Shown: piece by piece, positions 49,874 to 64,000 of the stretch
Layout: each line of letters opens with the position of its first letter
How positions within the stretch are numbered: position 1 is the stretch's first letter
From: Pseudomonas oryzae
GTDB lineage: Bacteria; Pseudomonadota; Gammaproteobacteria; Pseudomonadales; Pseudomonadaceae
NCBI RefSeq assembly: GCF_900104805.1
Contig: NZ_LT629751.1
Location: 2,709,001 to 2,773,000, forward strand
Reading direction: 5' to 3'
DNA: 64,000 bases
Program-made: the position numbers and the translations under genes
The notes under the pieces: model-generated
Seen by the model: the letters and a program-made list of their open reading frames with translations, nothing else
What the model was told of the DNA's origin: nothing
The model's database searches: none

Positions 49874-50039
49874 GCCTGAAAAATCCACCCGGCGCAGCGC
49901 CCGTCCCGGCGCCGGCTTGCCGCCCCGCTCGCCGCTGACGGCCCACGCTGCCAGGCTTGCCGCCGGCCCGCACACCGTCCGTCCACCGGTGGCGACCAGG
50001 CCGGCGCAGCTGTTGCACAGCAGGGCGCGCTCATGCACA

Positions 50040-50065
50040 ATGTAAACCATAGGTTTATGTAAACC
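50040..50065. promoter_or_regulatory. cntA operator candidate: ATGTAAACC direct repeat
   Basis: ATGTAAACC occurs twice (50040-50048, 50057-50065), repeat period 17 bp, 56-81 bp before the cntA ATG. The first copy also forms an inverted repeat with GGTTTA (50052-50057). GTTAAC (50070) and GGTAACC (50081) follow. The same motif with the same period stands upstream of the BCCT gene. This suggests an island-specific regulator. Confidence 0.5.
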
Positions 50066-50120
50066 TTTAGTTAACAGTGTGGTAACCCAACAATAACAGC
50101 GCTGTGCTGAGGAGATAACG

Positions 50121-51239
50121 ATGAACGACTATGCCAAGCTGCCGGCCGACTTCTGCGCCAACCCCGACGAGGCCTACACCCTCCCGGCGTCCTACTACAC
50201 CTCCTCGGCGGTCTACGCGGCGGAAAAGGAAAACATCTTCGCCAAAAGCTGGATCTGCGTCGGCCACCGCAGCGAGGTCGCCGAGAACAACGCCTACATC
50301 ACCCGCGAGGTGATCGGCGAGAGCATCATCGTCGTGCGCGGTCGCGACGGCGTGCTGCGCGCCTTCTACAACGTCTGCCCGCACCGCGGCCACCAGCTGC
50401 TCAGCGGCGAGGGCAAGGCCAAGAACGTGATCACCTGCCCGTACCACGCCTGGACCTTCAAGCTCGACGGCGAGCTGGCCCACGCGCGCAACTGCGAGGC
50501 GGTGAGCAATTTCGACAAGGACAACTCCAGCTTGGTGTCCCTGCGCGTCGAGGAGTACGCCGGCTTCATCTTCATCAACATGGACAACGACGCCGGCAGC
50601 GTCGAGGAGCAGTTGCCAGGCTTCCAGCAGCGCCTGCGCGAGGCCTGCGCGGTGATCGACGACCTGCAGCTGGGCGCGCGCTTCGTCACCGAGACCCCGG
50701 CCAACTGGAAGTCGATCGTCGACAACTACCTGGAGTGCTACCACTGCGGCCCGGCCCACCCGGACTTCGCCGCCTCGGTGATGGTCGACCAGTACTGGCA
50801 CAGCCTGCACGGCAACTGGACCCTGCAGTTCGGCCACGCCAAGCCGTCCGAGCAGTCGTTCAAGTTCGACCCGGAACAGGGCGGCGCCTGCTTCCACGGC
50901 TTCTGGGCCTGGCCGTGCACCATGTTCAACGTGCCGCCGGGCGCCAACTTCATGACCGTGATCTACGAGTTCCCGGTCAGCGCCGAAGTGACCCTGCAGC
51001 ACTACGACATCTATTTCCTCAACAAGGAGCTGACCGAGGAGCAGCGCAAGCTGATCGACTGGTACCGCGACGTGTTCCGCCCCGAGGACCTGCGCCTGGT
51101 CGAGAGCGTGCAGAAGGGCCTCAAGTCGCGCGGCTACCGCGGTCAGGGCCGGATCATGACCGACAGCCAGCGCAGCGGCATCAGCGAGCACGGCATCGCG
51201 CACTTCCACAACCTGATCGCCCGCCAGCACCAGGCATGA
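50121..51239 (+). CDS. cntA: Carnitine monooxygenase, Rieske oxygenase subunit CntA
   Basis: 372 residues. Cleaves the C-N bond of L-carnitine to trimethylamine and malic semialdehyde, using O2 and electrons from CntB. Rieske 2Fe-2S ligands Cys86, His88, Cys106, His109 (NVCPHRGH...TCPYHAW). The mononuclear iron triad is His208, His213 and Asp323 (HCGPAH, EDLRLVESVQ). The bridging residue is Glu205 (NYLECYH), which replaces the usual Asp and is diagnostic of CntA/YeaW. Length and residue numbering match the characterised enzyme. First gene of cntA-aldH-cntB. GGAGAT precedes the ATG. Confidence 0.92.
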   Translation: MNDYAKLPADFCANPDEAYTLPASYYTSSAVYAAEKENIFAKSWICVGHRSEVAENNAYITREVIGESIIVVRGRDGVLRAFYNVCPHRGHQLLSGEGKAKNVITCPYHAWTFKLDGELAHARNCEAVSNFDKDNSSLVSLRVEEYAGFIFINMDNDAGSVEEQLPGFQQRLREACAVIDDLQLGARFVTETPANWKSIVDNYLECYHCGPAHPDFAASVMVDQYWHSLHGNWTLQFGHAKPSEQSFKFDPEQGGACFHGFWAWPCTMFNVPPGANFMTVIYEFPVSAEVTLQHYDIYFLNKELTEEQRKLIDWYRDVFRPEDLRLVESVQKGLKSRGYRGQGRIMTDSQRSGISEHGIAHFHNLIARQHQA

Positions 51240-51291
51240 GCCCGACGCGGCCGGCCAGCGCCGGCCGCCCCTGATTCAGTGGAGATACGCG

Positions 51292-52740
51292 ATGAACCTG
51301 AAAGACCCCAGCCTGCTGCGCCAGCAGTGCCTGATCGACGGCGCCTGGCATGACGCCGACGCGCGCGGCCTGGTCGCGGTGACGGATCCGGCCACCGGCG
51401 CGCAGATCGCCGCGGTGCCGGCGATGGGCGCGGCCGAGACCCGCCGCGCCATCGAGGCCGCCGACCAGGCCCTGCCGGCCTGGCGCGCGCTGACCGCCAA
51501 GGAGCGCGCCGCCGTGCTGCGCCGCTGGTTCGAGCTGATGCTCGAGCACGAGGACGACCTCGCCGCGCTGATGACCCTCGAGCAGGGCAAGCCGCTGGCC
51601 GAGGCGCGCGCCGAGATCCGCTACGCCGCCTCCTTCGTCGAGTGGTTCGCCGAGGAAGGCAAGCGCATCTACGGCGACGTGATCCCCTCGCCCAGCGCCG
51701 ACAAGCGCCTGCTGGTGATCAAGCAGCCGATCGGCGTGTGCGCCGCCATCACCCCGTGGAACTTCCCGGCGGCGATGATCACCCGCAAGGCCGCGCCGGC
51801 GCTGGCCGCCGGCTGCACCATGGTGGTCAAGCCGGCCAACGAGACGCCGCTGTCGGCGCTGGCGCTGGCCGAACTGGCGCAGCGCGCCGGCCTGCCCGCC
51901 GGCGTGCTCAACGTGGTCACCGGCCATGCCCAGGCGATCGGCGCCGAGCTGACCGGCCACCCGCAGGTGCGCAAGCTGACCTTCACCGGCTCCACCCCGG
52001 TCGGCAAGCTGCTGATGGCGCAGTGCGCCGAGACGATCAAGAAGGTCTCGCTGGAACTCGGCGGCAACGCGCCGTTCATCGTCTTCGACGACGCCGACCT
52101 CGACGCCGCGGTGGAAGGCGCCATCGTGGCCAAGTACCGCAACGCCGGACAGACCTGCGTGTGCGTCAACCGCCTGTTCGTCCACGAACGGGTCTACGAG
52201 CGCTTCCTCGCCGCCTTCGCCGCCCGCGTGCGCGATCTGCGAGTCGGCAACGGCTTCGCTGCCGACACGCAGATCGGCCCGCTGATCAGCGACAAGGCGG
52301 TCGGCAAGGTGCGCGAGCTGATCGGCGACGCCCTGGCCAAGGGCGCGCGGCTGGTCGAGGGCGGCCAGCCGCACGCCGCCGGCCCGCTGTTCTTCCAGCC
52401 GACCATCCTCGCCGACGTCGTCCCGGGCATGCAGCTGCTCGACGAGGAGATCTTCGGCCCGGTGACCCCGGTGGTGCGCTTCTCCAGCGACGCGGAAGTG
52501 GTGCGTCTGGCCAACGACACGCCGTACGGCCTGGCCGCCTACTTCTACAGCCGCGACGTCGGCCGCGTCTGGCGCATCGCCGAGCAGCTCGAGTACGGCA
52601 TGGTCGGCGTCAACACCGGCCTGATCTCCAACGAGGTCGCCCCGTTCGGCGGGGTCAAGGAATCCGGGCTTGGCCGCGAGGGATCGAAGTACGGCATCGA
52701 GGATTACCTCGAGATGAAATACCTGTGCCTGGCGGTTTGA
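51292..52740 (+). CDS. NAD(P)-dependent aldehyde dehydrogenase, candidate malic semialdehyde dehydrogenase
   Basis: 482 residues of the succinate-semialdehyde dehydrogenase (GabD-like) branch. Catalytic Cys in NAGQTCVCVNR (about residue 286), general base Glu in SLELGGNAPFIVFD (about 252), cofactor-binding FTGSTPVGKLL, and substrate signature ITPWNFPAAMITRK. Sandwiched between cntA and cntB, so oxidation of malic semialdehyde to malate is the natural role. GGAGA lies seven bases before ATG. Confidence 0.88.
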   Translation: MNLKDPSLLRQQCLIDGAWHDADARGLVAVTDPATGAQIAAVPAMGAAETRRAIEAADQALPAWRALTAKERAAVLRRWFELMLEHEDDLAALMTLEQGKPLAEARAEIRYAASFVEWFAEEGKRIYGDVIPSPSADKRLLVIKQPIGVCAAITPWNFPAAMITRKAAPALAAGCTMVVKPANETPLSALALAELAQRAGLPAGVLNVVTGHAQAIGAELTGHPQVRKLTFTGSTPVGKLLMAQCAETIKKVSLELGGNAPFIVFDDADLDAAVEGAIVAKYRNAGQTCVCVNRLFVHERVYERFLAAFAARVRDLRVGNGFAADTQIGPLISDKAVGKVRELIGDALAKGARLVEGGQPHAAGPLFFQPTILADVVPGMQLLDEEIFGPVTPVVRFSSDAEVVRLANDTPYGLAAYFYSRDVGRVWRIAEQLEYGMVGVNTGLISNEVAPFGGVKESGLGREGSKYGIEDYLEMKYLCLAV

Positions 52741-52769
52741 CGGGCCCCTGAGATGCCGAGGTAGCAGCA

Positions 52770-53735
52770 ATGTCCAGCAAATACGAAATGCTCAAGGTGC
52801 GGGTCACCGCCATCGAACAGGCCACCCCGCTGATCAAGCGCTTCACCCTGAGCGCCTGCGACGGCAGCGAGCTGCCCGCCTTCAGCGGCGGCAGCCACGT
52901 CATCGTGCGCATGCAGGAAGGCGAGCAGACCTACAGCAACGCCTACTCGCTGATGAGCGACCCGCGCGACCGCCGCAGCTACCAGCTCGGCGTGCGCCGC
53001 GAGGAGCAGTCCAAGGGCGGTTCGGCGTTTCTCCACGAGCAGGTCGAGGTGGGCAGCGAGCTGACCATCTCCACGCCGAACAACCTGTTCGCCCTCGACC
53101 CGGCGGCCGGGCATCACGTGCTGATCGCCGGCGGCATCGGCATCACCCCGTTCATGTCGCAGCTGCACGACCTGCGCGCCAGCGGCGCCTCCTTCGAGCT
53201 GCACTACGCCTGCCGCAGCCCGGAGCACACCGCGTTCCAGGGCGAGGTGTGCGACCTCGCCGGCGGCCACGCGCACTTCTACGCCGACAGCCTCGGCCAG
53301 CGTCTCGACCTCGCGGCGCTGGTCGCCGGCCTGGCCGCCGACGCCCACCTCTATGTCTGCGGCCCGCGGCCGCTGATCGAGGCGGTGCTCGACAGCGCCC
53401 GGCAGGCCGGCGTCGAGGAGGCGCGGGTGCACTGGGAACAGTTCGCCGCCGCGCCGGCCAGTGGAGCTGCCTTCACCGTGGTGCTGGCGCGCTCGGGGGT
53501 CGAGCTCCAGGTCGAGGAGAACGGCAGCATCCTCAAGGCCATCGAGCAGGCCAACGCGGCGCGCGTCGAGTGCCTGTGCCGCGAGGGTGTGTGCGGCACC
53601 TGCGAGACCGCCATCCTCGAGGGCGAGGCCGAGCACCACGACCAGTACCTCAGCGACGCCGAGAAGGCGGCGCAGAAGAGTCTGATGATCTGCGTGTCGC
53701 GCGCCCGCACGCCGCGCCTGGTGCTGGATCTGTAA
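52770..53735 (+). CDS. cntB: Carnitine monooxygenase reductase subunit CntB
   Basis: 321 residues. Flavin domain with RxYS-type YSNAYSLMSDP and NAD-binding HHVLIAGGIGITPFMSQL (about residues 110-130). C-terminal plant-type 2Fe-2S domain with Cys270, Cys275, Cys278 and Cys308 (CX4CX2CX29C). Transfers electrons from NAD(P)H to CntA. Third gene, 29 bp after the dehydrogenase gene. FNR/phthalate-dioxygenase-reductase family. Confidence 0.9.
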   Translation: MSSKYEMLKVRVTAIEQATPLIKRFTLSACDGSELPAFSGGSHVIVRMQEGEQTYSNAYSLMSDPRDRRSYQLGVRREEQSKGGSAFLHEQVEVGSELTISTPNNLFALDPAAGHHVLIAGGIGITPFMSQLHDLRASGASFELHYACRSPEHTAFQGEVCDLAGGHAHFYADSLGQRLDLAALVAGLAADAHLYVCGPRPLIEAVLDSARQAGVEEARVHWEQFAAAPASGAAFTVVLARSGVELQVEENGSILKAIEQANAARVECLCREGVCGTCETAILEGEAEHHDQYLSDAEKAAQKSLMICVSRARTPRLVLDL

Positions 53736-53777
53736 GGCTGCCCGGGTGGCGCCGTCCGGCGTCGCCCGTCCCCCCCC

Positions 53778-53797
53778 GGGGCCGCTCCGGCGGCCCC
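53778..53797 (+). terminator. Hairpin after cntB
   Basis: GGGGCCG/CGGCCCC stem with six-base loop in a very GC-rich stretch, followed by CCCTTCC. Weak as terminator; may only attenuate transcription into the regulator gene. Confidence 0.35.
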
Positions 53798-53946
53798 CCC
53801 TTCCCCGCCGGACGCCCTGTGTATAATCGCCGCCCACAGGCTCCCCGTCCCACCCCGCGTTCCATGCCGTGTCGACGCCCGCCCGGGAGCACCGACCATG
53901 ACCGCGCCGCCCGCAGCCGGCCGCGCGCCCAGCCCAAGGTTGTTCG

Positions 53947-55317
53947 ATGGACGCCAACAGCTTCGCCTTCCGTCTCAAGGAACTGCTCGAGCACAAGAAA
54001 CTGACCCTGCAGGCGGTCGCCAACCAGCTCGGTATCTCGCGTACCGCCGTGCACAAGTGGACCCGCGGCGGCGAGATCGACGACGACAACCTGCGCCGCC
54101 TGGCCGCCTTCCTGCAGGTCAACTGGATCTGGCTGCGCTACGGCGAGCAGGCCCAGCAGGACGCGCAGAACGCCGAGGCGGTGGTGCTGCCGATGACCGA
54201 CGTGCGGCGCAAGTACACCGCGGAAATCATGGAGAGCGAGGCGCGCATGAAGCTCGCCCAGGAGAACGCGCGCATCGTCACCTGGGAGTGGAACCTGATC
54301 ACCGACGAGGTGACCTACTCGAGCAACGTCGAGCAGGTGTACGGCTGGCACGTGTCGCGCAACGACGAGTTCTGGCCGCACGTCATCGCCGAGGACGCCG
54401 CCAACCTGCGCGCGGTCAGCGAGCGTTCGATCGCCACCGGCACCCCCTACGAGACCGACTTCCGCATCGTCACCCCCAGCGGCGAGATCCGCTGGATCGC
54501 CTCGCGCGCTACGCCGCTGCAGGACAGCGCCGGGCGCACGGTGAAGATGATCGGCATCAGCATGGACAACAGCGCGCGCAAGAGCGCCGAAGAGAGGCTG
54601 CGCGCCAGCGAGGAGCGCTTTCGCGCGATCTTCGAGCAGGCCTGCGGCGCCATGGCCTACGTCAGCCTCGACGGCCGCTGGCTGAAGATCAACCAGAGCC
54701 TGTGCCAGCTGCTCGGCTACTCGGCCGACGAGCTCGGCGGGCTGAGCATCCAGGCGCTGACCCACCCGGACGATCTGGACGGCAACCTCGAGCTGCTCGA
54801 GCGCCTCAAGGCCGGCGAGATCGCCATGTACGCACTGGACAAGCGCCTGCGCCACCGCGACGGCCACTACCTGTGGGTGCGGGTGAAGACCTCGCTGCAG
54901 CGCAGCGCCCAGGACGGCAGCCCCGAACAGCTGATCGCCCTGATCGAGGACATCGGCGCCGAGCGCGCCGAGCGCCAGGGCCTGCAGGCCCGCGCGCGCC
55001 TGCTGGAGCGCCTGTGCCGCAGCGAGGACAGCGGCGAGTGGCGCTTCGAGCGCGACAGCGGCCGCCTGCACTGCGATGCCACCTGCGCCCGCCTGCTCGG
55101 CCGGCGCAGCGCCGCCCGGCTGGACAACCTGGCCGCCCTGCTGCTGCAGCTGCAGGAACAGGACGCCGCGCAGCTGGAAGCCCTGGTGCGCGACGCCGGC
55201 AAGGGCTTCGCTCTCGCCTGCCATCTGGAGGACGGCGCCGGCCGCGTCGAGTTCCTCGCCGAGCCGCAGGATGACGGCCGGCAGCTGGTCGGCCTGCTGC
55301 GCCCGCTGCGGGACTGA
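53947..55317 (+). CDS. XRE-type HTH regulator with tandem PAS sensors
   Basis: 456 residues. N-terminal XRE helix-turn-helix about residues 5-60 (LTLQAVANQLGISRTAVHKWTRGGEIDDDNLRRLAAFL). A helical linker follows, then PAS/PAC 1 (about 95-205, WEWNLITDEVTYSSNVEQVYGW) and PAS/PAC 2 (about 218-340, DGRWLKINQSLCQLLGYSADELGG). A degenerate third PAS-like segment fills 350-456. No kinase, GGDEF or EAL domain. The combination implies a one-component regulator; position after cntB and before the convergent BCCT gene makes it a candidate controller of the island. Ligand unknown. Confidence 0.8.
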   Translation: MDANSFAFRLKELLEHKKLTLQAVANQLGISRTAVHKWTRGGEIDDDNLRRLAAFLQVNWIWLRYGEQAQQDAQNAEAVVLPMTDVRRKYTAEIMESEARMKLAQENARIVTWEWNLITDEVTYSSNVEQVYGWHVSRNDEFWPHVIAEDAANLRAVSERSIATGTPYETDFRIVTPSGEIRWIASRATPLQDSAGRTVKMIGISMDNSARKSAEERLRASEERFRAIFEQACGAMAYVSLDGRWLKINQSLCQLLGYSADELGGLSIQALTHPDDLDGNLELLERLKAGEIAMYALDKRLRHRDGHYLWVRVKTSLQRSAQDGSPEQLIALIEDIGAERAERQGLQARARLLERLCRSEDSGEWRFERDSGRLHCDATCARLLGRRSAARLDNLAALLLQLQEQDAAQLEALVRDAGKGFALACHLEDGAGRVEFLAEPQDDGRQLVGLLRPLRD

Positions 55318-55334
55318 AGGACAGCCACACCACC

Positions 55335-55370
55335 AAGCACAACGGGAGCCCTCGGGCTCCCGTTGTGCTT
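55335..55370. terminator. Bidirectional terminator between regulator and BCCT genes
   Basis: 17-bp perfect inverted repeat (arms 55335-55351 and 55354-55370, AAGCACAACGGGAGCCC type), two-base centre, in the convergent gap. Confidence 0.85.
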
Positions 55371-55384
55371 CAACGCGGCACGGT

Positions 55385-57043
55385 TCAGCGCAGGGCCGGC
55401 ACCGGCTGCACCACCAGGCCCGCATCCGGCTCGGGCGCGACCAGCGGAGCGGTGCGCTGGCGTACCACCTGCACCACGCCCCCCACCTCGCCCAGGCTGA
55501 CCACGCTGGGCGCCAGGCTGTCGCCGAAGTCTTCGCGCGCCCAGCGCACCAGCGACATGCCCATGATCAGCAGCACCGGCAGCATCGGCAGGGCCACCAG
55601 CAGGGTGGAGATCTGCACCGCCTTGAGGCCGCCCACCGACAGCAGGCCGACACCGACGAAGGCCAGCAGCACCGCCCACAGCACGCGGTTGTAGCGCGCC
55701 GGCTCCTCGTAGCCGGACAGCTCGCGGGTGCACACCGAAGCCAGGGTGTAAGCCGCCGAGTCGACGGTGGTGGCGAGGAACACGAAGCACAGCAGGGTGA
55801 ACAGCGGGATGATCACCTCCGACAGCGGCAGGGTCTTCAGCACGGCCACCACGGTGGCCGGAATGCCGCTGGAGTTGAGCACCTCGCGCAGGGCGGCGGC
55901 CTCGTTCAGCTCCAGATGGATGGCATAGCCGCCCCAGATGGCGAAGAACACCCAGCAGCCGATGCTGCCCCACAGCACACCGTTGAGCACCAGCTCGCGG
56001 ATGGTGCGCCCGCGCGAGATGCGCGCGACGAACAGCCCCATCATCGGCGCATAGGCGACCCACCAGGCCCAGTAGAACACCGTCCAGCTCTCCGGGAAGC
56101 CGCCCTTGGCCACCGGGTCGGTCCAGGTGTTGATGCGGAAGAAGTTGTCGGCGAACAGGCCCATGCTGTTGGTCCACAGCTTGAACAGGTAGGCGGTCGG
56201 ACCGACCAGCAGCACCAGCGCCAGCATCAGCAGGGCGAGCACCGCGTTGACGTTGGACAGGGTCTGGATGCCCTTGCTCAGGCCGTTCCACACGCTCCAG
56301 GCGATCATCGCCGTCCACAGCACCAGGATGCCCATCTGCAGCAGGAAGGTATCCTCGAGGCCGAACATCTCCTGGAACAGGGTGGACACCAGCGGCACCG
56401 ACAGCCCCAGCGAGGTGCCGACCGCACCGATGATCGAGAACATCACGATCACGTCGATCAGCTTGCCGACCCAGCCGTCGATACGGTTGCCCAGCACGCC
56501 GCGGCAGGCGTCGGACAGGCGCAGCGTCTTGCCCTTGCGCACATAGAGGAAATAGGCGATCGGCAGCGCCGGCAGCAGGTAGATCGCCCAGGGCACCACG
56601 CCCCAGTGGAACATCGGATACATCGCCGCCCACTCGGCGGCCTGGGTGGTGCCCTTGGCGATGCCCAGCGGCGGACCGTCGAGCATGTACAGCGGCTCGA
56701 CGAAGGCCCAGTTGCAGATGGAAATGCCGATGCCGGCGCAGAACAGCATGGTCAGCCAGGCCGGCTTGCTGAACTCCGGCTGCTCGTCGGCGGAACCGAG
56801 CTTGATGCGCCCGAGCGGGCCGTAGGCCAGCCAGAGCATGAACACGAAGCTGGTGATGCCGGTCAGCAGCAGCAGCCAGCCGAAGCTGCCCGTCACCCAG
56901 GCGAACAGGTCATTGACGATAGCCTTGCCGGCCTCGGGGAACAGGATCAGCGGGATGCTGGTCAGCAGGATCGCGGCGACCGAGGGCCAGAAGATCGCCG
57001 GCTCGATCACCTTGCGGGTGGACGTCAGGTTGTTGGAACTCAT
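55385..57043 (-). CDS. BCCT-family transporter, probable carnitine/betaine uptake
   Basis: 552 residues, twelve helices. BCCT signature around WAWWVAYAPMMGLFVARISRGRTIREL (about residue 320), including the aromatic substrate-box tryptophans; LSFWG-type VPWAIYLLPALPIAYFLYVRK upstream. The family imports quaternary amines with Na+ or H+ or by antiport. Location in the cnt island and a promoter motif shared with cntA favour carnitine, but choline or betaine cannot be excluded from sequence. Confidence 0.88.
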   Translation of the reverse strand: MSSNNLTSTRKVIEPAIFWPSVAAILLTSIPLILFPEAGKAIVNDLFAWVTGSFGWLLLLTGITSFVFMLWLAYGPLGRIKLGSADEQPEFSKPAWLTMLFCAGIGISICNWAFVEPLYMLDGPPLGIAKGTTQAAEWAAMYPMFHWGVVPWAIYLLPALPIAYFLYVRKGKTLRLSDACRGVLGNRIDGWVGKLIDVIVMFSIIGAVGTSLGLSVPLVSTLFQEMFGLEDTFLLQMGILVLWTAMIAWSVWNGLSKGIQTLSNVNAVLALLMLALVLLVGPTAYLFKLWTNSMGLFADNFFRINTWTDPVAKGGFPESWTVFYWAWWVAYAPMMGLFVARISRGRTIRELVLNGVLWGSIGCWVFFAIWGGYAIHLELNEAAALREVLNSSGIPATVVAVLKTLPLSEVIIPLFTLLCFVFLATTVDSAAYTLASVCTRELSGYEEPARYNRVLWAVLLAFVGVGLLSVGGLKAVQISTLLVALPMLPVLLIMGMSLVRWAREDFGDSLAPSVVSLGEVGGVVQVVRQRTAPLVAPEPDAGLVVQPVPALR

Positions 57044-57207
57044 CGCATATCACCTCACTGATGAGCCAGGGAACTCATCATCTGGTCTACTTGTTGTTAT
57101 TTACCTTCAGGCAACGCTTGGCTGGTTGTTGGAATACACCTCCTGAGTGGGTCGCGGGCGCTTACCCGATGAAAGGATCTTGGTTTGCCGACCAAAAAGA
57201 AACCGTC

Positions 57208-57233
57208 AGTTAACATTCACTGACGGTTAACAT
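57208..57233 (-). promoter_or_regulatory. BCCT operator candidate: ATGTTAACY direct repeat
   Basis: On the minus strand ATGTTAACC and ATGTTAACT recur with a 17-bp period (57225-57233 and 57208-57216), about 165-190 bp upstream of the BCCT start. CCGTCAG/CTGACGG (57203-57209, 57220-57226) forms an overlapping inverted repeat. Same motif and period as at cntA (8 of 9 bases in each copy). Confidence 0.5.
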
Positions 57234-57269
57234 TATGGGCATGCGCTTTCACAAAGCGCAACAGTCGCC

Positions 57270-57283
57270 TTGATCTGCATCAA
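57270..57283. promoter_or_regulatory. Perfect Anr/FNR box
   Basis: TTGAT-CTGC-ATCAA matches the FNR/Anr consensus TTGAT-N4-ATCAA at all ten positions. It is 227 bp upstream of the BCCT ATG and about 145 bp downstream of the oxidoreductase stop. Oxygen-dependent control would make sense next to an O2-requiring monooxygenase; activity is inferred. Confidence 0.5.
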
Positions 57284-57427
57284 ACCCTTCGTTCGCCCCG
57301 CGTGCATGGCGCACAGATCGTGAAAACGCCCGGCACGCGGCCGCTCGCGCGGCGCTGCCATCCCCTGCCGTGGCGCCGGCGCCGCGCAGCAGCCGACGAA
57401 TGGCGGTCTGCTGCGGTTCCCGCGCGC

Positions 57428-59389
57428 TTACAGCTGCCAGCCGACGCGCAGCCCCTCGTACACCGCCTCCTCGGCGGTGCGCGGGGTCAGGCAGTCGCCG
57501 ACCAGGTGTACTTCGTCGACCAGCTCGCGCAGGTCGGCGGCCAGCTCGTCCTGCGGCGCGTGGCCCAGACACAGCACCAAGGTGTCGATGCCCTCGAACA
57601 GCAGCGGCTCGCCGCTGGTGGTGTGCTGCATGTACACGGTGTCGCCGTCGCCGCCGTACAGCCGCGCGTAGGGGGTGACGGCGATCTGCAGGCGATGCAG
57701 CTCGGCGGCCAGGTTGTCGCGCACGTACAGCGGCAGAGTCTCGCCGGCGTGGGTGCCGTTGACCGCCAGCTGCACGTGGCTGCCCTCGCGCGCCAGCAGC
57801 TCGGCGATCCCCGGGCCGATCCAGTCGCAGCGCCAGTCGGCCACCAGCACGCGGGCGCCGACCTGCACCTCGCGGCGCAGCACCTGCCAGGCGTCGACCA
57901 CCTGGATACCGCCGTCGAGCACCAGATCGGGCACATAGGGTCGCGCGCCGCTGGCCAGTACCACAGCGTCCGGTCGCTCGGCCGTCACCAGATTGCGGTC
58001 GACGCGGGTGTTCTTCACCACCTCGACGCCGGCCAGTGCCAGCTCGCGCGCCAGGTTGGTGACGATGCCGCCGAACTCGGCGCGGCGCGGCAGTTGCTGG
58101 GCCAGCAGCGCCTGGCCGCCGAGCTGGGAACTCGCCTCGTAGAGGGTCACCGCATGGCCGCGTTGCGCCGCGGTGATGGCCGCCTTCATGCCGCCCGGGC
58201 CGCCGCCGACAACCATCACTCGCTTGCGCCGCGCCGCCAGCCGCAGCGTGCCGTAGACCAGCTCGCGACCGGTTTCCGGGTGCTGGATGCAGGAGATCGG
58301 GTAGCCGCGGTGGAAATGGCCGATGCACGCCTGGTTGCAGGCGATGCAGGCGCGGATGTCGTCCGGCCGGCCCTGCTCGGCCTTGGCCGGCATCTGCGGG
58401 TCGCAGATCAGCGCGCGGGTCATGCCGCACACGTCGGCCTGGCCGGCGGCCAGCACGGCCTCGGCCTCGTGCGGCTGGTTGATCCGCCCGGCGACGAACA
58501 CCGGGATGCCCAGCGCGCGGCGGAACGCCCCGGCGCCGGCGGCCAGGTAGGCGTTGACCACCGCCATCGGCGGCACGATGTGCACCGCGCCGCCCAGCGA
58601 GGCGGAGGTGCCGGCGATGACGTTGACGTAGTCGAGCAGCGGTTCGAGGCGCACGCAGGCTTCCAGCGTCTCGGCGGCGGTCAGCCCCTCCTCGTCGCGC
58701 TCGCCGCCACCGCTGATGCGCATGCCGATGACGAAGTCCTCGTCGGTGCAGGCGCGCATCTCGGCAAGCACCTCGCGCAGGAAGCGCAGCCGGCCGTCCA
58801 GCTCGCCGCCGTACTCGTCCTCGCGGCGATTGACCCGCGGGTTGAGGAACTGCGCCGGCAGGTAGCCGTGGCTGGCCACCAGCTCCACCCCGTCCAGCCC
58901 GGCAGCGCGCATGCGCCGCGCCGCCTGGCCATAGCCGGCGACGATCTCGCGGATCAGCGCGTGGTCGAGGGCGCGCGGCATCACGTGGAAACGCTCGTTG
59001 GGCGACACCGACGGCGCCCAGGCCACCGCCAGCAGGCCGTCGGCGCTTTCCATGATCTCCCGCCCCGGGTGGAAAAGCTGGGAGAACACCGTACAGCCGT
59101 GGGCGTGGCAGGCCTCGGCCAGGCGCCGGTAGCCGTCGATGCAGTCATCCTCGGTGGCCATCAGCATGTGCGAGGTGTAGCGGGCCGTCTCGTGCACGCC
59201 GGCCACCTGGGTGACGATCAGGCCGGCACCGCCGCGGGCGCGGGCCTCGTGGTAGGCCACCAGCGCGTCGTTGACCCGCCCATCGGTGGGCAGGGTGGTG
59301 TCGTGACCGGTGGACATGATGCGGTTCTTCAGGCGCGCGCCGCGAATCTGCAGCGGCGCGAACAGGTGGGGAAACAGCTGGGCGCTCAT
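57428..59389 (-). CDS. OYE/FAD oxidoreductase of the TMADH-dienoyl-CoA reductase superfamily
   Basis: 653 residues. N-terminal FMN barrel (about 5-340; SHGYLPAQFLNPRVNRREDEYGG), 4Fe-4S motif CIACNQACIGHF...SC (CX2CX3CX11C, about 345-365), and FAD/NAD half starting VMVVGGGPGGMKAAITAAQRG (about 385). Relatives demethylate trimethylamine, dimethylglycine or proline betaine or reduce enoyl-CoA. The Trp/Asp substrate-site segment of trimethylamine dehydrogenase is not conserved here, so the substrate is unknown. etfBA lies close by, consistent with ETF as acceptor. Start ATG 59389 with GGAGAA. Confidence 0.85.
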   Translation of the reverse strand: MSAQLFPHLFAPLQIRGARLKNRIMSTGHDTTLPTDGRVNDALVAYHEARARGGAGLIVTQVAGVHETARYTSHMLMATEDDCIDGYRRLAEACHAHGCTVFSQLFHPGREIMESADGLLAVAWAPSVSPNERFHVMPRALDHALIREIVAGYGQAARRMRAAGLDGVELVASHGYLPAQFLNPRVNRREDEYGGELDGRLRFLREVLAEMRACTDEDFVIGMRISGGGERDEEGLTAAETLEACVRLEPLLDYVNVIAGTSASLGGAVHIVPPMAVVNAYLAAGAGAFRRALGIPVFVAGRINQPHEAEAVLAAGQADVCGMTRALICDPQMPAKAEQGRPDDIRACIACNQACIGHFHRGYPISCIQHPETGRELVYGTLRLAARRKRVMVVGGGPGGMKAAITAAQRGHAVTLYEASSQLGGQALLAQQLPRRAEFGGIVTNLARELALAGVEVVKNTRVDRNLVTAERPDAVVLASGARPYVPDLVLDGGIQVVDAWQVLRREVQVGARVLVADWRCDWIGPGIAELLAREGSHVQLAVNGTHAGETLPLYVRDNLAAELHRLQIAVTPYARLYGGDGDTVYMQHTTSGEPLLFEGIDTLVLCLGHAPQDELAADLRELVDEVHLVGDCLTPRTAEEAVYEGLRVGWQL

Positions 59390-59450
59390 CGGGCGAGTTC
59401 TCCGGGCAGGGCGGCGGGACGGGGGCCCGCCGCGCAGGGATACGGCAGGT

Positions 59451-59804
59451 TCAGCCGCCGATCTGGCGGGTTTTCCAGTCGGCCGGATGCAGGGCATAGA
59501 ACACCGTGGCGCCCTCACCCTCGTAGACCAGCGGGGTATTGGCCGGAATCCACAGCACGTCACCCGGCGACGTATCGAATACCGCATCGCCGACGCGCAG
59601 GCGGAAGTTGCCCTCCAGGGTGACGATCAGCTCGTCGTAGAGCACCGTCCAGGCGATCGAGCAGCCGTCGAAGCGGGCGACCCCAGCGCCCATGCTCTGG
59701 CTCAGCTCCGGACCGACCAGTCGGCAGATCGACGCCTTGCTCGGATCATCGCCGTAGGCTTCGAAGGTACGGGCGGAGCGCGGGAAGTGGATGACCTCGG
59801 ACAT
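59451..59804 (-). CDS. EutQ-like cupin protein
   Basis: 117 residues. Single cupin: DGCSIAWTVLYDELIVTLEGNFRLRVGD and SPGDVLWIPANTPLVYEGE, resembling the ethanolamine-utilisation EutQ/DUF861 group. Possible metal ligands are scarce, so it may bind a small molecule rather than act as an oxygenase. Transcribed 61 bp before the oxidoreductase gene and divergently from etfB. Start ATG 59804. Confidence 0.8.
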   Translation of the reverse strand: MSEVIHFPRSARTFEAYGDDPSKASICRLVGPELSQSMGAGVARFDGCSIAWTVLYDELIVTLEGNFRLRVGDAVFDTSPGDVLWIPANTPLVYEGEGATVFYALHPADWKTRQIGG

Positions 59805-59871
59805 TTGTTGTTCTCCTGATTGTCTTCGGGCCGGGACGGCCGCCAACAGACATTACCCATAATTTTTCCTT

Positions 59872-59900
59872 TAGTAAAAAATTCTTTTGTTTTTTTACTA
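59872..59900. promoter_or_regulatory. 29-bp perfect inverted repeat between cupin and etfB
   Basis: TAGTAAAAAA, nine bases, TTTTTTACTA: arms 59872-59881 and 59891-59900 pair perfectly. It sits in a markedly AT-rich island in the 169-bp divergent region, 68 bp from the cupin start and 74 bp from etfB. Shape fits a dimeric repressor/activator operator controlling both units; the XRE-cupin regulator downstream of etfA is a candidate. Confidence 0.5.
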
Positions 59901-59973
59901 TCAGCCACTAGGATGCCTCGGCAGCCTGCGCCATGGCGCAGCCCGTTCCCGCACGCCCAAAGGAGAAAACAAC

Positions 59974-60723
59974 ATGAGGGTGCTGGTTTGTGTGAAACGC
60001 GTGATCGACTACAACGTCAAGGTCCGGGTCAAGGCGGACAACAGCGGCGTCGATCTGGCCAACGTCAAGATGGCGATGAACCCCTTCTGCGAGATCGCCG
60101 TGGAAGAAGCGGTGCGCCTCAAGGAAAAGGGTATCGCCTCTGAGGTGGTGGCGGTCTCGGTCGGCCCGAATGCCGCCCAGGAGCAGCTGCGCACCGCGCT
60201 GGCCCTCGGCGCCGACCGCGCCATCCTGGTCGAATCCAATGACGAGCTGGGCTCGCTGGCCGTGGCCAAGCTGCTCAAGGCGGTGGTCGACAAGGAACAG
60301 CCGAAGCTGGTGATCACCGGCAAGCAGGCCATCGACAGCGACAACAACCAGACCGGGCAGATGCTCGCCGCGCTGACCGGCTTCGCCCAGGGCACCTTCG
60401 CCTCCAAGGTCGAGGTGGCCGGCGACAAGGTCGACGTGACCCGCGAGATCGACGGCGGCCTGCAGACCGTTTCACTGAAGCTGCCGGCCATCGTCACCAC
60501 CGACCTGCGCCTCAACGAGCCGCGCTACGCCTCGCTGCCCAACATCATGAAGGCCAAGAAGAAGCCGCTGGAGACCGTCACTCCGGAGGCGCTGGGCGTG
60601 TCCACCGCCTCGACGGTGAAGGTGCTCAAGGTCGAGGCCCCGGCCGCGCGCAGCGCCGGGATCAAGGTCAAGTCGGTGGCCGAGCTGGTCGAGAAACTGC
60701 AGAACGAAGCGAAGGTGATCTGA
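59974..60723 (+). CDS. etfB: Electron transfer flavoprotein beta subunit
   Basis: 249 residues. [23 protein letters not shown] start, AMP-binding [23 protein letters not shown], signature [25 protein letters not shown]. Accepts electrons from flavin dehydrogenases and with EtfA delivers them to ETF-quinone oxidoreductase. AGGAGA lies eight bases before the ATG. May be an extra, island-specific ETF; the number of ETF pairs in the genome is not visible here. Confidence 0.95.
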
Positions 60724-60724
60724 G

Positions 60725-61660
60725 ATGGCAATCCTGGTAATCGCTGAACACAACAACAGTGCCCTGGCTGCCGCCACCCTCAATACCGTGGCCGCCGCCA
60801 GCCAGATCGGTGGCGACATCCATGTGCTGGTCGCCGGCCAAGGCTGCGGCGCGGTCGCCGAAGCCGCGGCCCAGGTCGCCGGCGTGGCCAAGGTGCTGCG
60901 CGCCGACGCCCCGGCCTACGCCCACCAGCTGCCGGAAAACCTCGCGCCGCTGATCGTCGAGCTGGCGCGCAACGGCTACAGCCACGTGCTGGCCCCGGCC
61001 ACCACCAACGGCAAGAACTACCTGCCGCGCGTCGCCGCGCTGCTCGACGTCGAGCAGATCTCCGAGATCGTCAAGGTGGTTTCCGCCGACACCTTCCAGC
61101 GGCCGATCTACGCCGGCAACGCCATCGCCACCGTGCAGTCTTCGGCCAGCGTCAAGGTCATCACCGTGCGCAGCACCGGCTTCGACGCCGTGGCGGGCGA
61201 GGGCGGCAGCGCGAGCATCGAGGTCATCGACGCCGCCTGCGATGCCGGTATCTCCAGCTTCGTCGGCGAGGAAATCGCCAAGTCCGAGCGCCCCGAACTG
61301 ACCGGCGCGAAGATTGTCGTCTCCGGCGGGCGCGGCATGCAGAACGGCGACAACTTCCAGTTGCTCTACGCGGTGGCCGACAAGCTCGGCGCCGCGGTGG
61401 GTGCCTCGCGCGCCGCCGTCGACGCCGGCTTCGTGCCCAACGACCTGCAGGTGGGGCAGACCGGCAAGATAGTCGCGCCGCAGCTGTACGTCGCCGTCGG
61501 CATTTCCGGTGCCATCCAGCACCTGGCCGGCATGAAGGATTCCAAGGTGATCGTGGCAATCAACAAGGACGAGGAAGCACCGATCTTCCAGGTCGCCGAC
61601 TACGGCCTGGTCGCCGACCTGTTCGAGGTGGTGCCGGAGTTCAGCCGCCAGCTTCCCTGA
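60725..61660 (+). CDS. etfA: Electron transfer flavoprotein alpha subunit
   Basis: 311 residues, ATG one base after the etfB stop. C-terminal FAD-binding signature [34 protein letters not shown] (about 258-292), and VVSGGRGMQ (about 199). Forms the heterodimer with EtfB. A hairpin follows. Confidence 0.95.
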
Positions 61661-61666
61661 CCCGCC

Positions 61667-61689
61667 ATGCGCCCCGCCACGGGGCGCAT
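61667..61689 (+). terminator. Hairpin after etfA
   Basis: 9-bp perfect stem ATGCGCCCC/GGGGCGCAT with five-base loop just after the etfA stop. No T-run. Confidence 0.5.
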
Positions 61690-61821
61690 CGCCCTGATGC
61701 CACTGCGGGCATTTCCCGCCATCCTCCGGGGCAGATGCGGTATCGTTGCAGCCAACACACCGATACCCGACCCGTCCCCCTGCTGGCCGTCAGCCCGCAG
61801 GGCAGAGAGCAAGGCCCGCGC

Positions 61822-62433
61822 ATGACCCACCCAACGCAAACCGACAACGAGGTGTCGGCGAACGCCGGCGACCTGGCCAACAGCCCCTTTCTCGGCGAAC
61901 GCATCCGCGGCCTGCGCAAGCGCCGCAAGATGACCCTGGTGCAGCTCGCCGAAAGCAGCAACCTCTCGCCGGGCTACATCAGCCAGGTGGAACGCAACCT
62001 GGCCTTTCCGTCGATCGCCGCCCTGGTCAACATCGCTCGCAGCCTGGGCGTGACCGTGCAGTGGTTCTTCGCCGGCGAGGAGCCGGTACCCAGCGAGGAG
62101 CGCGACTACGTGGTGCGGCGCAACAACCGCCTGCGCATCCAGTACGACCAGGGCATCGTCGACGAACTGCTGACGCCGAAGATGAACCTGCAGCTGGAGA
62201 TGCTCTACACCCGCATGCCACCCGGCGCGGAGAGCACCCAGAGCTACTCGCACGAGGGCGACGAGGTGGGCTTCGTGCTCAGCGGCCAGCTCGAGCTGTG
62301 GGTCGGCGAGCGCTACTTTCACCTGTTCGAGGGCGACAGCTGCGCCTTCTCGTCACGCGAGCCGCATCGCTACCGCAACCCGGGCAACAGCGAAACCATC
62401 GTGGTCTGGGCGATCAGCCCGCCGAGCTTCTGA
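61822..62433 (+). CDS. XRE-cupin transcriptional regulator
   Basis: 203 residues. XRE HTH about 24-80 (RIRGLRKRRKMTLVQLAESSNLSPGYISQVERN), then a C-terminal cupin sensor about 125-200 (HEGDEVGFVLSGQLELWVGERYFHLFEGDS). Similar to PuuR/PauR-type regulators of amine and polyamine catabolism. ATG 61822 chosen; longer frame has no conserved sequence. Likely regulates etfBA and/or the cupin-oxidoreductase unit. Ends before a bidirectional terminator. Confidence 0.87.
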   Translation: MTHPTQTDNEVSANAGDLANSPFLGERIRGLRKRRKMTLVQLAESSNLSPGYISQVERNLAFPSIAALVNIARSLGVTVQWFFAGEEPVPSEERDYVVRRNNRLRIQYDQGIVDELLTPKMNLQLEMLYTRMPPGAESTQSYSHEGDEVGFVLSGQLELWVGERYFHLFEGDSCAFSSREPHRYRNPGNSETIVVWAISPPSF

Positions 62434-62459
62434 AGCGGACTTCCTCAAACCCCGGATAC

Positions 62460-62491
62460 GCGAAGGCCGCGGTTTCACCCGCGGCCTTCGC
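62460..62491. terminator. Bidirectional terminator
   Basis: 13-bp perfect stem GCGAAGGCCGCGG/CCGCGGCCTTCGC, six-base loop, between the XRE-cupin gene and the convergent 42-residue ORF. Confidence 0.75.
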
Positions 62492-62496
62492 CTTGC

Positions 62497-62625
62497 TCAC
62501 TCGGTTGCCGCCTCCGCCGGCACCCTCCGCGCCGCATAGTCGCGCCGCACCACGGCGTGCGCCAGCAGCCCCATCAGGAAGACCGAAAGACCGTAACCGA
62601 TCGACAGCAGATATGCGCCCAGCAT
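62497..62625 (-). CDS. 42-residue single-pass membrane protein following the SSS symporter
   Basis: Short ORF MLGAYLLSIGYGLSVFLMGLLAHAVVRRDYAARR..., with one transmembrane helix (about 3-25) and a basic tail, topology probably N-out. GAGAGAGGTG lies upstream of the ATG and overlaps the symporter stop region; only 14 bp separate them. Small companions like this accompany other SSS transporters, so it is probably cotranslated and may be a transporter subunit. Below usual annotation size limits; not recognised by name. Confidence 0.5.
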   Translation of the reverse strand: MLGAYLLSIGYGLSVFLMGLLAHAVVRRDYAARRVPAEAATE

Positions 62626-62639
62626 GACGTTCACCTCTC

Positions 62640-64000
62640 TCAGGATTGTCCCAGCGCCTGGCTGTAGGGAATCGCGTAGTAGTTGATCAGCAGGGCGGCG
62701 ATCAGCACCCCACTGGCCATCATCAGCCGCGGCACCAGCAGGGTGCCGCCCACTGCGGCGTTATCGCACTCCTCGACCGGTGTCTGGCGGATGCGCGCGA
62801 GAAAGCTGCGCTCGGTATGGCTGACCGTACCGGCGCGACTGACCAGCAGGATGGTCAGCAGGCTGAGCACGCTGCCGATGATGAACGGATCCAGGTAGAC
62901 CGGCAGGCTGACCACACCGAACTTGCGCAGGAAGTTGGCGATGATGTTGGCGACGAAGCCAACCACGATGCCCCAGAAAGCGGCAGAGGCAGTGATGCGC
63001 TTGCTCCAGATGCTCATGAAGGCCACCGCGCCCCACGAGGAGGCGAACAGGGTGCCGGCGAAATAGGTGATCCACATGATCGCCGACGGCTTGATGAAGG
63101 CGATCGCCAGACTGACCAGGCCGGCCGCCAGCATCACCAGCCGGCTGTAGCGCAGCTTCTCGGCATCGCTGCCCTTGAGCTCGACGATGTCGTTGGTGGC
63201 GCTGAAACCGATCAGCGACAGGAAGGTGGAGCAGGACGACAGCGCCGCAGCCATGATGCCGACGATCAGAATGGTGCCCAGCCAGCCGGGCATGACGTTC
63301 ATCGCCGCCCAGATCACCGCCTTCTCCGGATTGTCGATGGCCGGGTTGAGCAGGTTGATCGCCGCACCCATCAGCATCAGGGCGATGTACAGCAGCATCA
63401 GGATCAGCCCGGACCAGCAGGCCGAGCGGATCACCACATGCTCGCTGCGCGCCATCAGGTAGCGACTGGTCTGCCACGGGCTGACCGCCACCACCCCGCC
63501 CCAGGCCACGCCGAGGATCAGCGCCCACACCAGCGAGCTGGCGTGCGAGGGCCAGTAGGCCTTGTCGCCCTCGAGGCCGTGCCAGGCGAGGATGCCCGGA
63601 CGCTGTTCGAAGGTCGCCAGCGCGGCCACGGTCTGCTGCATGCCGCCGGTGGCGTCGATCAGGTACCAGACGCCGAGGAAGGCCACCACGGTGAACACCA
63701 GGAACATCAGGGTATCGGTGAGCACCACCCCTTCCGACCCCGAATAGAGCGTGAACAGGGTGTAGCCGAGCCACACCAGCAGCAGCGCCTGCCAGTATTC
63801 AAGGCCGCCGATCTCGGAGATCAGCAGCGCAGCGCCCTGGGTAACCGCGATCAGGTAGGCGGTGATGCCGAGGATGGTGGTCAGCCCCGCGGCACACTGC
63901 ACCCGCCGCGAGGCGAAGCGCTTGCCGAAGTATTCGGGGATGGTCAGCGCCTGGCTGCGACGCACATAGCGGCCGAAGAACAGTGCACCGACCACGTACC
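62640..64000 (-). CDS. Sodium:solute symporter family transporter, N-terminus outside window
   Basis: The frame is open to the window end, leaving about 453 C-terminal residues with at least ten helices; the N-terminal ~80-100 residues are missing. Typical features: RSQALTIPEYFGKRFASRRVQ, GVAWGGVVAVSPWQTSRYLMAR and MAAALSSCSTFLSLIGFSATND (Na+-site helix). SSS family members carry amines, carboxylates or sugars; clustering with amine-catabolic genes suggests an amine or related substrate. Confidence 0.88.
   Translation of the reverse strand, partial: YVVGALFFGRYVRRSQALTIPEYFGKRFASRRVQCAAGLTTILGITAYLIAVTQGAALLISEIGGLEYWQALLLVWLGYTLFTLYSGSEGVVLTDTLMFLVFTVVAFLGVWYLIDATGGMQQTVAALATFEQRPGILAWHGLEGDKAYWPSHASSLVWALILGVAWGGVVAVSPWQTSRYLMARSEHVVIRSACWSGLILMLLYIALMLMGAAINLLNPAIDNPEKAVIWAAMNVMPGWLGTILIVGIMAAALSSCSTFLSLIGFSATNDIVELKGSDAEKLRYSRLVMLAAGLVSLAIAFIKPSAIMWITYFAGTLFASSWGAVAFMSIWSKRITASAAFWGIVVGFVANIIANFLRKFGVVSLPVYLDPFIIGSVLSLLTILLVSRAGTVSHTERSFLARIRQTPVEECDNAAVGGTLLVPRLMMASGVLIAALLINYYAIPYSQALGQS

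Follow-up and report, generated by a model that had tools for sequence, protein, structure and literature searches.

An apparently acquired carnitine-utilisation island in Pseudomonas oryzae with tandem operators and a candidate XRE-PAS regulator

The DNA studied here is a stretch of 64,000 nucleotides of Pseudomonas oryzae (contig NZ_LT629751.1, assembly GCF_900104805.1), called the window below, which corresponds to genome positions 2709001-2773000 of a single-contig genome of 4.64 Mb; coordinates follow window numbering unless marked as genome. It contains cntA, encoding the oxygenase subunit of carnitine monooxygenase, together with genes for a semialdehyde dehydrogenase, the reductase subunit CntB, an XRE-PAS regulator and a BCCT transporter. 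With a probability of about 0.77, we read this locus as an acquired carnitine-utilisation island in which uptake and cleavage would form a two-promoter XRE-PAS regulon, with separate LysR control of the D-malate step. The island very probably lets the bacterium take up carnitine and split it into trimethylamine and an organic acid that it can use. Which genes are present, the active-site residues, the limits of the island, the operators and the co-occurrence of operator and regulator are seen in the sequence, whereas the reactions themselves are what we infer. The enzymes are of a known kind, and the association of a tandem operator with XRE-PAS seems to be new: among the matches listed, no XRE-PAS regulator of carnitine genes appeared in titles and abstract openings of the open-access literature.

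The five genes listed by the initial annotation were all recovered by open reading frames and family models: cntA (50121..51239, plus strand, 372 residues), the putative malic semialdehyde dehydrogenase gene of the succinate-semialdehyde dehydrogenase family (51292..52740, plus strand, 482 residues), cntB (52770..53735, plus strand, 321 residues), the XRE-PAS gene, which is the fourth of the cntA run (53947..55317, plus strand, 456 residues), and bcct (55385..57043, minus strand, 552 residues). However, the transporter does not simply follow cntB as had been described, since bcct is on the minus strand and convergent to the XRE-PAS gene. CntA was 74% identical to the solved Acinetobacter baumannii CntA over residues 4-371 (E = 1.9e-200), with 668.6 bits versus 112.6 for the next solved Rieske relative, and it scored 163.6 against the GbcA model, whose cut-off is 670. 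All 17 checked residues were kept with identical numbering, including those that had been named as diagnostic, namely the Rieske ligands Cys86, His88, Cys106 and His109, the Fe ligands His208, His213 and Asp323, and the bridging Glu205. In addition, Tyr203, Cys206, Cys209, Tyr225, Phe258, Asn270, Tyr295, Tyr315 and Phe319 were present, so that the protein displays the ligands, the bridging glutamate, Tyr203, the Cys206/Cys209 pair and the pocket residues of group V Rieske oxygenases. The roles of these residues are described in PMC7948474 and PMC10952381. The dehydrogenase shared 290 of 482 residues with the A. baumannii malic semialdehyde dehydrogenase and kept the seven residues checked, whose roles are given in PMC11353897; the model of the succinate-semialdehyde dehydrogenase subfamily was passed above its cut-off. 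CntB was 56% identical to its A. baumannii counterpart over 322 columns. The identity and residues of CntA and the order cntA-dehydrogenase-cntB thus give strong sequence support to the trimethylamine-forming route that had been proposed.

Two tandem operators were found in the upstream regions of this locus. Operator 1 (50040..50064, plus strand), built of ATGTAAAC half-sites with a period of 17, lies upstream of cntA as ATGTAAACC-N8-ATGTAAAC, with no mismatch and with a weaker overlapping match that reaches 50077. Operator 2 (57209..57233, minus strand), of ATGTTAAC half-sites with the same period and also without mismatches, lies upstream of bcct as ATGTTAACC-N8-ATGTTAAC. The pattern TGTWAACY-N10/11-GTWAAC had exactly two matches in the 4.64-Mb genome, one before cntA and the other before bcct, and the reversed control had none. 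At up to three mismatches the window gave three matches, two of them overlapping, with 0.02 expected. The operators stand 81 (cntA) and 190 (bcct) bases from the start codons, and the distance ranges from about 37 to 210 bases across the loci of relatives. A palindrome scan of the upstream regions was noisy.

When one genome per species was scanned, 459 stretches were found to encode a relative, and the 80 with the best match to this CntA were used. XRE-PAS was encoded near cntA in 64 of these, and these 64 together with the plasmid locus L114 make up the 65 linked loci. The operator rule applied across loci (period 17 or 18, at most one mismatch) was widened after a first look at the data: a first scan with period 17 only had given 8 of the 65 loci at one mismatch, and a period scan found period 18 in 50 of the 65 linked loci and in 15 of the 19 remaining ones. 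Under this rule, the operator was present in 58 of the 65 linked loci (62 at two mismatches), in all 15 loci whose XRE-PAS gene is unlinked, and in none of the four in which no XRE-PAS was found (L109, L112, L113 and L115). It stood upstream of cntA in 54 of 80 cases (39/65 linked, 15/15 unlinked) and upstream of the transporter gene in 63 of 79 (52/64 linked, 11/15 unlinked), and it was never found, in the linked and unlinked sets, before the genes for the dehydrogenase, CntB, XRE-PAS, LysR, D-malate dehydrogenase or the hydrolase. Altogether 117 of 512 upstream segments carried an operator; when the segments were shuffled, none of the 512 did in any of five rounds.

The 15 operator-bearing genomes without a linked regulator gave rise to a prediction fixed beforehand, namely that XRE-PAS would be encoded elsewhere, and a copy with 65-69% identity was found in all of them. 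These copies are all open and have 342-361 residues, the stops counted in five of them being the end of the protein. Thirteen are on a contig other than that of cntA, and the remaining two share its contig at distances of about 270 kb and about 24 kb. Beside the unlinked gene, in the 10 of 15 genomes covered, there was neither an operator nor a cnt gene, and only weak LysR and hydrolase matches were seen. The genome of L109, which lacks the operator, had no XRE-PAS at E <= 1e-40. Similarly, among 36 genomes including that of P. oryzae itself, a high-identity XRE-PAS match reaching the HTH occurred in the same three genomes that have a close CntA, the other matches being weaker and mostly partial PAS. 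In trees of CntA (85 rows) and of HTH plus PAS1 (66 rows) many groups agreed, as read from partial output with no formal test; those agreeing include Burkholderia with Paraburkholderia, Neisseriaceae with Cupriavidus and Massilia, and the window with Stutzerimonas stutzeri K1. From the co-occurrence of operator and regulator in the linked loci, the unlinked loci and L109, XRE-PAS most likely controls the genes for carnitine uptake and cleavage.

The identity of the transporter was considered separately. The BCCT protein was only 31% identical, over 478 columns, to the transporter of the A. baumannii cluster (Aci01347 type), which does not make it an ortholog, and it belongs to another subfamily. 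Its closest solved relatives were DddT (478 bits) and then CaiT (306 bits), and it reached 442.4 bits with the CaiT family model, below the cut-off of 541. In the alignment to CaiT, with positions counted by eye, Arg262 is replaced by Asn and Met331 is kept; both residues have roles in CaiT. This BCCT could therefore import dimethylsulfoniopropionate, choline or betaine and be a mere neighbour of the carnitine genes, in keeping with the greater closeness to DddT, with the distance from the A. baumannii transporter and with the presence of this BCCT type near cntA in only 1 of the 80 loci. We consider this unlikely, given that bcct carries one of the two operator copies of the whole genome, as the usual transporter gene does in other loci, that a BCCT 91% identical is kept beside cntA in S. 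stutzeri K1, and that at E <= 1e-60 the genome has just one other BCCT match, 32% identical and encoded in another place. The assignment of BCCT as a carnitine importer, a substrate inferred mainly from the operator before bcct and not from orthology, is thus preferred. In 14 Burkholderia and Paraburkholderia loci (L089, L092-L095, L098, L101, L103, L106-L108, L110, L111 and L114), a protein annotated in L114 as cytosine permease, presumably of family NCS1, replaces BCCT beside cntA. The operator (at most one mismatch) precedes its gene in 11 of the 14, which makes this protein, although its family is unexpected, a candidate for carnitine transport.

The carbon route appears to continue past the end of the window, where two more genes were found 0.7-2.8 kb beyond it. 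The first (genome 2773675-2774586; window 64,675-65,586, minus strand) encodes a LysR protein that is the best match of the genome to the A. baumannii LysR regulator (45%) and that scores 369.5 with a TtdR-like model, below the cut-off of 398. The second (genome 2774687-2775766; window 65,687-66,766, plus strand) encodes a tartrate/D-malate dehydrogenase, the best match of the genome to the A. baumannii enzyme (72%) and above the cut-off of the tartrate dehydrogenase model. In A. baumannii carnitine is converted into malic semialdehyde, D-malate and pyruvate (PMC11353897), and with cntA, the dehydrogenase gene, cntB and these two genes the published route is complete on paper. According to this scheme, carnitine would enter through BCCT; CntA, with electrons of NADH delivered by CntB, would split it into trimethylamine and malic semialdehyde; the semialdehyde dehydrogenase would form (D-)malate; and the D-malate dehydrogenase would convert this into pyruvate. 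It is quite unlikely that the cluster serves mainly for gamma-butyrobetaine, or for trimming an osmoprotectant pool, instead of growth on carnitine: A. baumannii CntA also accepts gamma-butyrobetaine (PMC7948474), and clusters without the semialdehyde and/or D-malate dehydrogenase have been argued to adjust carnitine levels (PMC11353897), but this island has the genes of both dehydrogenases.

With regard to regulation, XRE-PAS would bind the tandem TGTWAAC sites before cntA and bcct, coupling uptake and cleavage as a two-promoter regulon, and LysR, whose gene is divergent from that of D-malate dehydrogenase, would control the D-malate step separately. This division is suggested by the fact that no D-malate dehydrogenase or LysR gene examined is preceded by the operator. 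The least probable of the alternatives, that the operator belongs to the CarR-like LysR protein and XRE-PAS is a bystander or modulator, would fit the finding of LysR no more than 10 kb from cntA in 71 of the 80 loci and the binding of A. baumannii CarR to the region before the carnitine operon reported in PMC11353897, but in the XRE-bearing sets the operator precedes none of 74 LysR starts and none of 70 D-malate dehydrogenase starts, is absent from Acinetobacter, Psychrobacter and Klebsiella stretches that have LysR, occurs where no LysR is nearby (e.g., L074, L079, L080 and L082), and tracks XRE-PAS in the 15 unlinked genomes, both being missing in L109, although L109 also lacks a nearby LysR. 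As a separate observation, the LysR/D-malate dehydrogenase divergon of L026 (6588-6687) has a dyad of its own, GGCAGATTATCTATCGATCTATGCC, spotted by eye as a candidate LysR site.

Many XRE-type proteins that have paired sites act as repressors. Because of the position of the sites and the type of protein, XRE-PAS would be a repressor, a sign that we guess at about two to one, and it would be released when PAS1 senses carnitine or a product of it. The protein comprises an HTH (about residues 1-66), PAS1 (about 98-210), PAS2 (about 219-340) and a C-terminal extension. In an alignment of 28 sequences every invariant column was at or before residue 218, that is, in the HTH, the linker and PAS1, and PAS2 was variable and even absent in L087; this distribution points to PAS1 as the signal sensor. 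The invariant Trp and Tyr of PAS1 were considered as a cage for quaternary ammonium and given no weight, because such residues are usual in this PAS type. A further proposal, which we hold tentatively and at somewhat less than even odds, is that XRE-PAS founds a family of one-component sensors of carnitine (or trimethylamine) in which PAS1 binds the ligand directly and releases the operator of a recurrent uptake and cleavage regulon. If this were true, the same regulon would recur with cnt genes in Pseudomonas, Stutzerimonas, Burkholderiales, Neisseriaceae and Aeromonas, and it would persist despite a regulator gene placed elsewhere in the genome or a transporter swapped for an unrelated one.

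Several results weigh against the interpretation of the locus as an XRE-PAS-controlled carnitine island. The 80 loci are those nearest to this CntA, so the association was measured near the query and related loci were counted as separate ones. The operator was missing in 7 of the 65 linked loci at one mismatch and in 3 also at two, and in none of the 65 did it stand upstream of the XRE-PAS gene itself. The absence of XRE-PAS in L112, L113 and L115 holds for the fetched stretches alone. In the trees, the CntA of the window groups with Pseudomonas (98/95) and its XRE-PAS with L074, Neisseriaceae and Cupriavidus (99/91), a conflict that hints at an exchange of the regulator. One short row, L087, lowered the count of invariant columns past residue 235. 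Neither operator had a consensus sigma-70 promoter next to it. Part of operator 2 also reads as a terminator-like hairpin (57201-57228), and this site may therefore serve a second or a different function. Finally, the dehydrogenase reached 827.6 bits with the model of NADP-dependent succinate-semialdehyde dehydrogenase, just below the cut-off of 828, and so the sequence and the checked residues do not tell malic from succinic semialdehyde as its substrate.

The description of the locus as an island was borne out, and its limits can now be given. An empty site beside aspS was found in all five cntA-less Stutzerimonas genomes compared (G001, G002, G004, G006 and G007; G005, also without cntA, was outside this comparison). 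They align to the window until about 49,900-49,916 and again from about 66,850-67,000, with some 70-830 bases between. The island therefore occupies 49916..64000 of the window and continues to about 66,850-67,000. Of the seven Stutzerimonas genomes G001-G007, only that of S. stutzeri K1 (G003; locus L032) has a close cntA (98%), at the same place beside aspS and in the uninterrupted order cntA, dehydrogenase, cntB, XRE-PAS, BCCT, LysR and D-malate dehydrogenase. From these comparisons the cnt genes are a horizontally acquired island; no direct repeats longer than nine bases were found at its edges.

An extra block of 7.4 kb between BCCT and LysR (57284..64000 in the window, to 64,670 past it) is absent from K1, and it was either inserted here or lost there. 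It contains genes for an OYE-type flavoenzyme (about 57428-59389, minus strand), a EutQ-like cupin (59451-59846, minus strand), EtfB (59974-60723, plus strand), EtfA (60725-61660, plus strand), an XRE-cupin regulator (61822-62433, plus strand) and a sodium/solute symporter (from 62640, minus strand). The OYE/ETF genes were considered as encoding a trimethylamine dehydrogenase. However, the best solved relatives of the flavoenzyme were NCR and 2,4-dienoyl-CoA reductase (about 250 bits) versus 160 bits for trimethylamine dehydrogenase, and its homologues (68-72%) in four relatives are unlinked to a close CntA, which is lacking in G008, G009 and G015 and lies megabases away in G017. As a consequence, these genes were rejected as part of the carnitine pathway, and the block is probably a separate unit outside it. 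The cysteine spacing of the flavoenzyme, CxxCx3Cx11C, is presumably that of reductases. The OYE and XRE-cupin genes are also found together in G008, G015 and G017.

Carnitine is likewise a food for P. aeruginosa, through genes in the order caiX-cdh and under CdhR, a regulator of AraC type. Unlike the route proposed here, that one is a dehydrogenation under CdhR as activator (PMC5806209). The search for cdhA homologues that had been suggested found no CdhA above cut-off: the L-carnitine dehydrogenase model NF005471 gave five matches in the genome, the best with 109 bits against a cut-off of 414 (the second carnitine dehydrogenase model, NF005716, and CdhR were not searched genome-wide). A possible cdh operon was considered around genome 1142884 and 1146105, where two BKACE (cdhC-like) genes adjoin genes for a TauD-type dioxygenase, a quinone reductase and an MFS protein, and it was discarded, since none of the ten frames scanned there encodes a CdhA-like dehydrogenase. 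The genome encodes a glycine betaine monooxygenase GbcA (786.8, cut-off 670). With GbcA present and no CdhA above cut-off, the genome seems to lack the step that connects carnitine with betaine, and the P. aeruginosa carnitine route seems absent from it.

The A. baumannii cluster (carR-mdh-bcct-hyd-cntA-msadh-cntB) shares with this locus the core order cntA-msadh-cntB, the D-malate dehydrogenase, the LysR protein and the active-site residues. Here its set of cntA, msadh, cntB, BCCT, mdh and LysR is found together in about 17 kb, split by the extra block, which separates LysR and mdh from the rest; XRE-PAS and the tandem operators are added, and the BCCT is convergent and of the other subfamily. 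The hydrolase gene hyd had no match in the K1 locus at the tblastn threshold used. The yeaTUVWX-type clusters of Escherichia coli and Klebsiella have an oxygenase about 73-74% identical, and the Klebsiella stretch has the reductase, BCCT, LysR and tartrate dehydrogenase, but neither XRE-PAS nor operator; the E. coli cluster is reported to lack msadh (PMC11353897). XRE-PAS also occurs in other cnt loci of Pseudomonas, Cupriavidus and Paraburkholderia, which have tandem operators in front of cntA, of the transporter gene or of both; they differ in that their transporter is usually the A. baumannii-type BCCT, or else cytosine-permease-like. Consequently, the distinct wiring announced by the initial annotation stands with respect to CdhR, but not in general, as LysR and D-malate dehydrogenase genes of A. 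baumannii type lie just past the window and XRE-PAS cnt clusters are common in Pseudomonas and Burkholderiales.

Counting genes within 10 kb of cntA at fixed identity thresholds, with some loci cut by contig ends, the 80 loci had cntB in 80, LysR in 71 (as above), D-malate dehydrogenase in 67, A. baumannii-type BCCT in 65, semialdehyde dehydrogenase in 61, a cytosine-permease-like gene in 13 and an A. baumannii-type hydrolase in 2. In the 19 without a semialdehyde dehydrogenase (L033-L037, L041-L043, L046, L051, L053, L055, L062, L079, L080, L082, L086, L087 and L109), a relative elsewhere in the genome may replace it. Among these, L062, from Pseudomonas capeferrum WCS358, has cntA and cntB together with a BCCT of A. 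baumannii type and a linked XRE-PAS gene. As 51 of the 80 best cntA loci are titled Pseudomonas, the trimethylamine route is not rare in this genus. A 1982 title in reference lists, on carnitine assimilation by P. putida, suggests an early biochemical study of this route. L042, titled Pantoea sp. Cy-639, has a Pseudomonas-like cnt locus, 83% to the CntA of the window, and its title may be a misnaming. In G017 a second Rieske oxygenase (C1:3256941-3257999, region L027), 42% to CntA, occurs in addition to the 80% one and is possibly another quaternary-amine oxygenase. A CntA-like gene of a soil bacterium, 73.8% similar, had been noted earlier in PMC7118221.

The conversion of carnitine into trimethylamine matters for gut and environmental trimethylamine, and it has been argued that the genomic context of cntA, beyond its mere presence, needs to be taken into account (PMC11353897). 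Given a candidate regulator and the operator defined for it, one could predict from the sequence which cntA genes are controlled by carnitine and which transporter goes with them, as in the case of the swapped BCCT of this island.

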